From positions 62,001-126,000 of the forward strand of contig JAJRPO010000026.1 of NCBI GenBank assembly GCA_024280735.1: a stretch of DNA of 64,000 nucleotides, given 5' to 3'. The notes beneath the pieces were generated by a model. That model saw only the letters and a list, made by a program, of their open reading frames with translations, ran no database searches and was not told the DNA's origin. The DNA comes from Alphaproteobacteria bacterium (lineage in GTDB: Bacteria; Pseudomonadota; Alphaproteobacteria; Rhodobacterales; Rhodobacteraceae). The position numbers were made by a program, and so were the translations under genes. How positions within the stretch are numbered: the first letter of the stretch is position 1; each line of letters starts with the position of its first letter. This document shows positions 56,930 through 60,059 of this stretch, one piece after another.

Positions 56930-57982
56930 ATGACAAAGAATACACCTGCCCAGCCTCCAGCCGACCATCCAAATGTTCAGTTTGGCAAGATCGGCGTTAT
57001 CATTTCAAACCTTGGTACGCCGGACGCCACCGATTACTGGCCTATGCGACGCTATTTGAATGAATTTCTGTCGGACCAGCGGGTGATCGATTATCCCCGT
57101 TGGAAATGGCAGCCGCTGTTGCAGCTGATCATCCTGACCAAACGCCCGTTTTCATCGGGCACTGCCTATAAAACCATTTGGAACGAGGGTCGTAATGAAA
57201 GCCCGTTGCTGACCACCACAAGGGATCAATGCGACGCGCTGCGAGACCGGCTTACCGCACTGCACGGCGATCAAATCGAAGTGGATTTCTGTATGCGCTA
57301 CGGCAATCCGGCCACCTCCCATGTGATCGAAAAGATGAGGTCCAAGGGCTGCGACCGCATCCTGTTTTTCCCGCTTTATCCGCAATACGCCGCCGCCACG
57401 ACAGCCACCGCCAATGATGAAACATTTCGGACCTTGATGAAATTGAACTGGCAGCCGGCAATCCGCACAGTGCCCGCATATTTTGATGATCCGATGTATA
57501 TTCAGGCTTTGGCAAATTCTGTTGAAACAGCTTACCGCGCGCTCAAAACCAAGCCGGATATACTGGTAACGTCTTATCACGGAATGCCTAAACGCTATTT
57601 GGCAGAGGGTGACCCATATCATTGCCAGTGTCTGAAAACCACGCGACTGCTGCGTGAAAAACTCGGCTGGCTGGAGAGTGATATTTCAGTCACATTTCAG
57701 TCACAATTCGGGCCAGAGGAGTGGTTGCAACCCTATACTGTCGAAGAAGTCGCCCGCTTGGCGAAGGTGGGCAAGAAACATTTGGCCATCATGGCACCGG
57801 CCTTTTCGACAGATTGCCTAGAGACGCTTGAGGAAATCAAGGAAGAAATAAAAGACAGCTTTATCGCTGCGGGAGGTGAGGAGTTCACCTATATACCATG
57901 CCTTAACGACACAGTGGATCATATTGATATGATGGTCGAAATCGTCCAGAATGAGTTAATGGGCTGGATACCCAAACTATAG
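56930..57982 (+). CDS. hemH: Ferrochelatase
   Basis: A 350-residue enzyme inserting Fe2+ into protoporphyrin IX, the last heme step. Signatures: S-N-L-G-T-P-D-A-T, catalytic His in S-Y-H-G-M-P-K-R-Y, Q-S-Q-F-G-P-E-E-W-L-Q-P-Y and the catalytic Glu region A-P-A-F-S-T-D-C-L-E-T-L-E-E-I. Complete. With hemD and hemY it gives three heme genes in this window. About 40 bases after the methyltransferase gene, likely same transcript. Confidence 0.96.
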   Translation: MTKNTPAQPPADHPNVQFGKIGVIISNLGTPDATDYWPMRRYLNEFLSDQRVIDYPRWKWQPLLQLIILTKRPFSSGTAYKTIWNEGRNESPLLTTTRDQCDALRDRLTALHGDQIEVDFCMRYGNPATSHVIEKMRSKGCDRILFFPLYPQYAAATTATANDETFRTLMKLNWQPAIRTVPAYFDDPMYIQALANSVETAYRALKTKPDILVTSYHGMPKRYLAEGDPYHCQCLKTTRLLREKLGWLESDISVTFQSQFGPEEWLQPYTVEEVARLAKVGKKHLAIMAPAFSTDCLETLEEIKEEIKDSFIAAGGEEFTYIPCLNDTVDHIDMMVEIVQNELMGWIPKL

Positions 57983-58064: not shown

Positions 58065-58202
58065 TTAGCCTGCGTAATTCTCAACCGGCGTACCTTCAAA
58101 CACGCGATCGCCCACTTTGATTGCGATAATGCCGTTTGCAAGGCTCTTAAGAAAAAGCCCCTGAACCGCAACACAGCTGCCGATTATGATTGTTCTATAC
58201 AT
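58065..58202 (-). CDS. Small protein of 45 residues behind a lux-box-like site
   Basis: An ATG at 58202, preceded by GGGGAG at a seven-base spacing (58210-58215), opens a 45-codon frame ending in TAA. The product starts with M-Y-R-T-I-I-I-G-S-C-V-A-V-Q-G, a short hydrophobic stretch, and continues with I-I-A-I-K-V-G-D-R-V-F-E-G-T-P-V-E, which looks like a compact beta-strand protein. One cysteine (C10). I cannot name a family. The gene occupies most of the otherwise empty gap between hemH and mutT. A perfect lux-box-type inverted repeat lies 49 bases upstream of the start. Together the ribosome site, codon pattern and promoter element make it a probable real gene. Confidence 0.65.
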   Translation of the reverse strand: MYRTIIIGSCVAVQGLFLKSLANGIIAIKVGDRVFEGTPVENYAG

Positions 58203-58250
58203 CTTGAAACTCCCCGGATCATGTATGCTTAAGTTAAGTATGAGATAATA

Positions 58251-58270
58251 ACCTGTAACTTACTACAGGT
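58251..58270 (-). promoter_or_regulatory. Lux-box-like 20-bp inverted repeat
   Basis: ACCTGTA (58251-58257), six bases (ACTTAC), then TACAGGT (58264-58270): a perfect 7+7 dyad. The arms and spacing are those of the Vibrio fischeri luxI lux box, the site for acyl-homoserine-lactone-responsive LuxR; only the central six bases differ. The flanks are AT-rich, unlike the rest of the window. With the box centred at -42.5 the transcript of the 45-codon gene would start near 58218, just before its ribosome site; a weak -10 (TAAGCA, 58231-58226) fits. A second dyad, GTAATTTA/TAAATTAC at 58269-58295, overlaps the edge. Confidence 0.6.
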
Positions 58271-58308
58271 AATTTATAAAAATTTAGTAAATTACTCGCC
58301 AAATATAG

Positions 58309-58707
58309 TTAAAGCCAATCGCGCAATACGGAAATAATCGGAATATCGGCGGGCGGCATCGGGTATTCTTTTAATTTGTTCGGCCGGACCCAAGCCAATT
58401 CCTGCCCTTCCAGCCCGCGCGGAATACCATCCCACTTTCTACATGCAAAAAGCGGCATAAGTAGATGAAAGTCTTCGTATTTGTGGCTAGCAAAGGTCAG
58501 GGGTGCAAGGCAGCTCTGCCAGGTATCAATACCCAATTCTTCTTGTAATTCGCGGATCAAGGCCTCCTCGGGTGTTTCCCCTGCCTCAACCTTACCGCCG
58601 GGGAACTCCCACAGCCCCGCCATGGATTTCCCCTCTGGCCGCTGCGCCAATAGGACACGGCCATCTTTATCTATCAAGGCAACCGCCGCAACCAGAACGG
58701 ACTTCAT
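58309..58707 (-). CDS. mutT: 8-oxo-dGTP diphosphatase MutT (NUDIX)
   Basis: A 132-residue NUDIX hydrolase that clears oxidised dGTP. The Nudix box G-K-V-E-A-G-E-T-P-E-E-A...R-E-L-Q-E-E-L-G-I is at 38-60; W-E-F-P-G-G precedes it as in MutT, and the length is typical. The ATG overlaps the argJ stop by four bases. About 240 bases lie between its start and the 45-codon gene's end region; no terminator beyond the AT-rich dyad is seen. Confidence 0.93.
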   Translation of the reverse strand: MKSVLVAAVALIDKDGRVLLAQRPEGKSMAGLWEFPGGKVEAGETPEEALIRELQEELGIDTWQSCLAPLTFASHKYEDFHLLMPLFACRKWDGIPRGLEGQELAWVRPNKLKEYPMPPADIPIISVLRDWL

Positions 58708-60059
58708 GATCTGTAGTCTGCATTTATTTGGATATACCCGTGGGTGAAATCACAAGTCCAAACTGTGGCACGGCCTTTGCCGACTCCCAGATCAACACCC
58801 AAAACCAGCTCAGCGCCCTTCATATAGTCAACGCCATCCTGCTCCGTATAACTTTCAGCGACCCAGCCTTTTTCGGCAACCAGAATATCACCAAACCTAA
58901 TTGCCAGTGCATCGCGGTCTGCCTTTTCCCCAGACTTGCCAACCGCCATAACCACCCGACCCCAATTTGGATCTTCACCGGCAAAGGCAGTTTTGACCAA
59001 CGGGGAATTCGCAATCGCCAGCCCAACTGTATGCGCCGCAGCATCTGATTGCGCCCCTGTAACTGCAATCTCGATGAACTTGGTTGCACCTTCACCGTCT
59101 TTGACCACTTGATGCGCCAGATCCAACATCACCCCGTGCAGCTGCGTGGAAAATTCCTTGGCGGCTTTACTCGCCGTTGATTTGATTTCCGTATTACCCG
59201 CCGCGCCTGTGGCAAAAACCAGCACAGTATCCGAGGTCGAAGTATCGCTGTCGACTGTAATGCTGTTGAACGATGACTGGTTGTTTGCCGAAACAATCTT
59301 TTGTAATGCTCCGTTCGTAATCGCCGCATCCGTATAGATATAGACCAACATCGTCGCCATATCCGGTGCGATCATGCCAGAACCCTTGGCGTAGCCCGCG
59401 ATCTTTACGGTCCGGCCATCTAAAACAAACTCGGCCCAAGCACCTTTGGCAAAAGTATCCGTTGTCATAATGGCCCGCGCTGACGCTTCGGCCCGTTCCG
59501 TCGAGAGTTCATCACCAAGCTGGATCAGTTTGGTAACAATCCTGTCATGCGGTAACGGCTCCCCGATAACCCCCGTAGAAGACGTGAAAACATTACCGGC
59601 AGAGGTTCCAAGGGTTGTCGCTGCTGCATCACAAACAGCCTTGACAGACCCATCACCCGCCTTGCCAGTAAAGGCATTGGCATTCCCAGAATTCACAACA
59701 AGGCCCAATGGCTCATCAGTTTTTCCAGATTTATGCAAGGCCGCCAGTTTTTCCTGACAATCCAGAACCGCCGATGATCGCGTTTGCGACGTGGTGAATA
59801 CACCTGCGACGGCACTACCCGCAGCGATTTCCACCAAAGTTACATCGTCGCGATCTTTATACTTCACCTCAGCGGAACCAGAGGCAAAACGAACCCCGTC
59901 GATCACTGGCAGCACAGGGAACCCAGCAGCAGGAGCAAGGGGTGAAACCGATGGCATTTGAACAACAGTTCCCATCTGCGCCAGATCTTTGCGCAAACGC
60001 TTAATTCTACCCTTCAGTTTTTTGACCAGTGACTTGTCAGTCATATCCTCTTTTGCCAT
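58704..60059 (-). CDS. argJ: Bifunctional glutamate N-acetyltransferase / amino-acid acetyltransferase
   Basis: A 451-residue self-cleaving Ntn-type enzyme that recycles acetyl groups in arginine synthesis. The cleavage site and nucleophile Thr are in G-M-I-A-P-D-M-A-T-M-L; N-S-G-N-A-N-A, G-V-I-G-E-P-L-P and D-P-N-W-G-R-V are further family motifs. ArgJ is usually about 405-415 residues; here about 35 extra N-terminal residues, rich in Lys/Arg (S-L-V-K-K-L-K-G-R-I-K-R-L-R-K-D-L), precede S-P-L-A-P where the family begins. Later ATGs at 59990 and 59972 could start a normal-length protein, but the 60059 ATG has the better upstream purine tract. Confidence 0.92.
   Translation of the reverse strand: MAKEDMTDKSLVKKLKGRIKRLRKDLAQMGTVVQMPSVSPLAPAAGFPVLPVIDGVRFASGSAEVKYKDRDDVTLVEIAAGSAVAGVFTTSQTRSSAVLDCQEKLAALHKSGKTDEPLGLVVNSGNANAFTGKAGDGSVKAVCDAAATTLGTSAGNVFTSSTGVIGEPLPHDRIVTKLIQLGDELSTERAEASARAIMTTDTFAKGAWAEFVLDGRTVKIAGYAKGSGMIAPDMATMLVYIYTDAAITNGALQKIVSANNQSSFNSITVDSDTSTSDTVLVFATGAAGNTEIKSTASKAAKEFSTQLHGVMLDLAHQVVKDGEGATKFIEIAVTGAQSDAAAHTVGLAIANSPLVKTAFAGEDPNWGRVVMAVGKSGEKADRDALAIRFGDILVAEKGWVAESYTEQDGVDYMKGAELVLGVDLGVGKGRATVWTCDFTHGYIQINADYRS

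Follow-up and report, generated by a model that had tools for sequence, protein, structure and literature searches.

A perfect lux-box-like dyad ahead of a conserved small gene in Rhodobacteraceae, and a LuxR solo that may use it

The small gene and its surroundings

We analysed a 64,000-nucleotide stretch of an alphaproteobacterial genome of the family Rhodobacteraceae (hereafter the window; the genome is G000 in our comparisons). Behind argJ and a mutT-like gene, and convergent with hemH, the window carries an ORF for a 45-aa protein. The gap ahead of this ORF, which has a G+C content of 30% compared with 53% for the whole window and had rightly been described as AT-rich in a first-pass annotation of the same DNA, holds a perfect lux-box-like dyad, ACCTGTA-N6-TACAGGT (Table 1).

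Table 1. Features of the locus and of the LuxR solo loci discussed in the text
Feature	Position	Strand	Basis
ORF of the conserved 45-aa protein, ATG start; small SH3-like barrel by prediction	58065..58202	-	
Ribosome-binding site CCGGGGAG of the small gene	58210..58217	-	sequence; invariant in own, G226 and G210
mutT-like NUDIX hydrolase gene	58309..58707	-	Pfam PF14815, E 1e-29
argJ	58704..60059	-	Pfam PF01960
hemH (ferrochelatase), convergent with the small gene	56930..57982	+	Pfam PF00762
Perfect lux-box-like dyad ACCTGTA-N6-TACAGGT	58251..58270	.	exact match; top matrix score in the window, 21.9 bits
Candidate -35-like TAGTAA, overlapping the first arm's end and part of the dyad spacer	58260..58265	-	putative; invariant in own, G226 and G210
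Candidate -10-like CATACT, 17 bases after TAGTAA	58237..58242	-	putative; 5 of 6 columns invariant
LuxR solo gene	G000:C40, L037:1384-2238		autoinducer-binding domain, no luxI nearby
Tandem lux-box-like elements, ~260-390 bases downstream of the LuxR solo	own element L195:2616-2635 (G000:C40)		
Hairpin with invariant UACUUCCCGGUUC loop region	L195:2430-2442, L196:2463-2475, L197:994-1006		

A match to the small gene is present in 129 of 198 family genomes, G000 included, and the records with relatives (80 of 136 loci kept) include Rhodobacter capsulatus, Ruegeria, Salipiger and Paracoccus. Of the 70 loci fetched, 69, that of the window among them, have the gene behind mutT and in its orientation; the fetched stretch of the remaining locus, L075, showed no mutT. 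At the level of the genus, for which 33 genomes were searched, the small gene is kept in 9 of 30 loci, again including our own, with one of the 30 (L112) ending inside mutT. In 15 of these 30 loci hemH adjoins mutT with no small gene between them, despite the frequency of the gene in the family. The closest keepers, G226 and G210, encode a small protein that is 87% identical to that of the window, and the codon differences from G226 and G210 number 25 and 22 in third positions, 4 and 4 in first positions, and 2 and 2 in second positions. Since third-position differences dominate, the gene is translated and under purifying selection, and the small gene proposed in the first-pass annotation is real. 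At L091, L093, L101, L102, L104 and L110, which belong to a different branch of the genus, a short CTATTTTGGGGATAG-like dyad can be seen by eye around the ribosome site of the small gene.

We found no Pfam or NCBIfam model for the 45-aa product; the best Pfam E-value among 48 members was 0.012, and the matches were to scattered families. The confident AlphaFold2 model of the protein (mean pLDDT 93.4) has four strands arranged as a small SH3-like barrel, which is its predicted fold. The same arrangement is found in the small SH3-like or Sm-like beta barrels of Hfq, Tudor and the C-terminal domain of BirA, and the weak matches to these domains reflect no more than a common fold. We suggest that the small protein, which is covered by neither family database, deserves a name however the dyad is read.

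Sequence, position and conservation of the dyad

The dyad is a 20-base palindrome with a CT-N12-AG core and lux-box arms. In its 14 arm bases and its spacing of six it is identical to the Vibrio fischeri lux box, the 20-bp operator of LuxR, in the form printed in PMC4444344 (ACCTGTAGGATCGTACAGGT), as had been recognised in the first-pass annotation; it differs in the spacer and in lying over a -35-like element, and both its regulator and its ligand are putative. It is the only match to the lux box at up to three mismatches in the window, where shuffled sequences gave a mean of 0.77, and the chance of an exact 14-base match, computed as 4^-14, is about 2.4e-4 per window, in agreement with the earlier estimate of about 2 in 10,000. 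Whatever their sequence, perfect 7-6-7 dyads number five in the window; perfection alone is therefore nothing unusual, and the notable part is the identity with the lux box. A scan of the genome for further copies, proposed in the same annotation, returned no second exact copy in 2.63 Mb searched (71% complete). Five genomic sites, that of the window included, match at up to two mismatches, as against two for a control with the pattern written backwards, and at least three of the other four fall within long ORFs (L002, L003 and L004).

Between the dyad and the ATG lie 48 bases (rather than 49, as first counted); the ribosome site is good, and the position is promoter-like. The columns conserved between our sequence, G226 and G210 include TAGTAA, followed after 17 bases by CATA(C/G)T, and we interpret the two as candidate promoter elements; a scan with the sigma-70 consensus reported neither of them. 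The Vibrio fischeri lux box is centred near -42.5, and activation as at luxI would want the box further upstream. Because the arms of the dyad straddle the conserved -35-like TAGTAA, repression would be likelier than activation if the dyad is bound, and the earlier suggestion of a LuxR-type activator acting at this site is, on our reading of that overlap, doubtful. Promoters that LuxR can repress, in which the lux box sits between -35 and -10, have been described (PMC4444344).

The first-pass annotation had named conservation of the dyad among relatives that keep the small gene as a test of its proposal, and here the proposal fares badly. None of the 68 other family-level gaps has a site with at least 11 of the 14 lux-box bases (the best has 10), and sites with at least 9 occur in 13 of the 68 gaps, compared with 17.6 in shuffles. 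Among the eight other keepers in the genus the best values are 9 of 14 bases and, with the matrix described below, 3.3 bits. Conservation in relatives that have both target and regulator is a supporting, not a strictly defining, criterion for a lux box. The arms of our dyad agree with G226 and G210 at only 9 and 5 of 14 positions, compared with 5 and 6 of 6 positions in the spacer; these two genomes have no match at E 1e-20 to the LuxR solo described below, so their missing dyad is not a strong argument against an operator. The exact dyad is present in 2 of 33 genus genomes and 2 of 198 family genomes, which makes 3 of 229 when shared genomes are counted once (G000, G227 and G082); in the same set the backwards pattern gave one exact match and about three exact dyads would be expected by our own arithmetic (4^-14 over ~0.8 billion bases). 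G227 keeps the small gene, with its exact dyad elsewhere on the contig. Two of the three genomes with an exact dyad have the LuxR solo, which amounts to a weak one in two once the window's own copy is set aside.

A tandem lux-box-like element beside a LuxR solo

The genome encodes two luxI and four LuxR-type domains (Autoind_bind matches above the cut-off), all outside the window, consistent with the earlier supposition that a partner regulator would be encoded elsewhere. No site above 9 of 14 lux-box bases was found in the regions upstream of the luxI and luxR genes at C46 and C14. At C14 (L040) two LuxR-type genes on opposite strands lie upstream of the second luxI, which also has a TTGACCTGAAAATGTCAA dyad upstream. 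A further LuxR-type gene, at C40, is a solo (Table 1). It is uncommon, with matches in 3 of 33 genus genomes at E 1e-20 and in 25 of 394 family genomes at E 1e-60.

By manual count the C40 solo has W57, L61, W70 and S71, in a region where its alignment with the LuxR of C46 is gapped, and its acyl-homoserine-lactone (AHL) pocket looks altered. An altered pocket makes control by AHL doubtful, and with it the idea of an ordinary AHL as the signal. The solo resembles group 5 of the LuxR solos, for which an arrangement tk - luxR solo - rimO and changed AHL-pocket residues, D70W and P71S, have been reported (Subramoni et al., 2015; PMC4338825). The likeness, which concerns residues 57, 61, 70 and 71, consists of W57, W70 and S71; residue 61 differs, being L rather than E or H, and the downstream neighbour of the solo in our genome is gyrB-like, not rimO. 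A rimO-like ORF ends beside the box at one solo locus (L114). The proposal of the first-pass annotation is partly supported, in that LuxR and LuxI genes exist and that the solo group has a conserved candidate operator with the same arms. Its quorum-sensing part is doubtful: the regulator that fits is a solo whose AHL pocket looks changed, and the upstream regions of C46 and C14 reach 9 of 14 at most.

The exact dyad of G082 lies 271 bases downstream of its ortholog of the C40 solo (L114), where it is box 1 of a tandem element (L114 and L222). Because this dyad stands beside a solo ortholog, we searched 30 solo loci for lux-box sites. Within 900 bases downstream of the solo, sites with at least 11 of 14 bases are present at 10 of the 30 loci and sites with at least 12 at 7, one of which, at L210, is probably not the tandem site; six rounds of base shuffles gave means of 0.67 and 0.17, respectively. 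Upstream of the solo no site was found at any of the 30 loci, compared with 0.83 and 0 in shuffles. All 10 loci with a site at the lower threshold have solos of at least 53% identity, and more distant loci have none. The boxes are paired, 31 bp from start to start, with pair sums of 18 to 24, compared with a median of 16 and a maximum of 18 in shuffles. In a scan of offsets over 13 of 18 loci (at least 57% identity) with a box of at least 10 of 14, an offset of 31 had the highest mean neighbour score, 6.77, compared with 3.43 over all offsets. Spacer positions outside the scoring are also conserved; 12 of 13 boxes, for instance, have A at position 10. The tandem-element loci are L195, L196, L197, L206-L209, L211, L215, L216, L218, L219 and L222. 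The element of our own genome is weak, with 11 of 14 bases, a poor second box and a pair sum of 19, the shuffle maximum being 18. Overall, the comparison of loci gives good support to a LuxR-type element that goes with the C40-solo group.

A survey of LuxR solos sought palindromes upstream of the solo transcription units and reported several alphaproteobacterial ones without CT(N12)AG (PMC4338825), whereas the boxes found here lie downstream. A review of 2014 names a single roseobacter binding site for a LuxR-type protein as defined by experiment, and states that the sequence required upstream of ssaI does not form an inverted repeat (PMC3907830). Among the matches listed in our literature search, as far as titles and the beginnings of abstracts go, none gives an account of the tandem boxes found here or of their operator role.

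Terminator-like hairpins with T runs lie between solo and boxes, directed toward the solo at 8 of 13 loci and in the opposite direction at 2 of 13, our own locus having neither. It is as if the boxes drove an RNA of about 200-300 bases that converges on the solo. No Rfam match was found between solo and boxes at the six loci searched. The three genus members with the solo share a hairpin with an invariant UACUUCCCGGUUC loop region, whose stems differ yet stay paired, with z-scores of -4.1, -4.0 and -2.9 for stretches cut around the motif. Among 238 fetched loci, the 13-mer of this hairpin occurs at L195-L197 and at L037 and L201, the latter two being our own locus again; it is absent from the window. 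The CUUCCCGG of that hairpin could pair with the ribosome site of the small gene, CCGGGGAG, an observation that may mean nothing.

Possible origins of the dyad

The reading we put first, to which we give somewhat less than an even chance, is that the dyad is a lineage-specific operator of a LuxR-type regulator, most likely the C40 solo. Its arms match the solo-group consensus, ACCTGT..ACAGGT, perfectly. With a matrix built from 12 boxes of other genomes, the arm part of which is partly circular because the training arms were chosen by their likeness to the lux box, the dyad scores first in the window at 21.9 bits, compared with 18.1 for our own tandem box and 17.7 for the best of 20 block-shuffled windows. 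The dyad spacer scores ~0, compared with a mean of 5.31 in the training boxes (our own tandem box, at 1.98, is the lowest of 13), so the total stems from the arms alone. The window dyad also lacks a partner at 31 bp and the conserved A-rich spacer, and by inspection is a single box. In none of the 10 further carriers of the solo whose small gene was scored is there a box upstream of that gene (best score 6.1 bits), and five of them (L208, L209, L210, L215 and L219) have the tandem element at the solo; the solos of three of the 10 (G002, G072 and G186) have only 43-53% identity and no boxes. The two other solo carriers of the genus, G213 and G215, yielded no small gene, which makes the nearest comparison impossible. 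The earlier proposal of a LuxR-type operator thus gains a solo group with an operator of the same arms, and loses by the dyad being unconserved, single and ill-fitting in its spacer.

If the dyad is an operator of the solo, a dimer of the C40 solo would bind its two arms and cover TAGTAA, the -35-like element of a putative promoter of the small gene. Binding would most likely repress the 45-aa protein, activation being the less likely mode, and the trigger would probably be something other than an ordinary AHL. A regulatory link from the dyad to the small gene is plausible. Comparison establishes the dyad, the small gene, the regulator gene and the conserved tandem element of the orthologs, whereas binding of the solo to that element and to the dyad, the promoter, the direction of regulation and the nature of the ligand are inferred. 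A conserved tandem lux-box element tied to a LuxR solo offers a concrete candidate operator, and through it the isolated palindrome becomes a prediction that names its regulator.

Between operation by the solo and coincidence the decision is close to a coin toss. We see a substantial, though minority, chance that an AT-rich promoter region drifted into the lux-box palindrome with no protein using it, the small gene being served by an ordinary conserved promoter. The lack of a comparable site in scored relatives that keep the small gene would be expected from such drift, as would a spacer more conserved than the arms in G226 and G210, the commonness of perfect 7-6-7 dyads, and a number of exact copies over 229 genomes that is at chance level. 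What drift explains poorly is an exact 14-base match beside a start codon in a genome that has such a regulator, as do few in the genus (3 of 33); that an exact dyad should fall both at a promoter and in a solo-carrying genome has a small joint probability.

Another kind of regulator, or a LuxR-type protein from the two luxI loci rather than the solo, is an improbable user of the dyad. Dyads of 20 bases with 7-base arms suit many dimeric regulators, and two luxI are present in the genome, as are three LuxR-domain matches besides the solo; the poor sites upstream of the C46 and C14 genes, and the different dyad upstream of the C14 luxI, speak against this. Least probable is that the dyad serves, behind mutT, as an RNA hairpin or as a weak terminator of transcription. 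A minus-strand scan flags it as terminator-like (8 pairs with the tail TATTATCTCA), and as an isolated hairpin it has -7.8 kcal/mol; against this, it has only 3 G-C pairs, 1.2 such sites are expected in shuffles, the 108-base leader folds otherwise (z +0.44), and the 6 of 69 mutT-small gene gaps with a terminator-like hairpin in a separate scan do not include our own.

The reading of the dyad as an operator of the solo can be extended, in a form that we consider unlikely: a solo with an altered pocket would use its tandem boxes to drive a structured RNA toward the 3' end of its own gene, and in this lineage would have captured the promoter of a conserved SH3-barrel mini-protein by means of a perfect single box. 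If true, this would be a LuxR regulon of one small RNA and one small protein.
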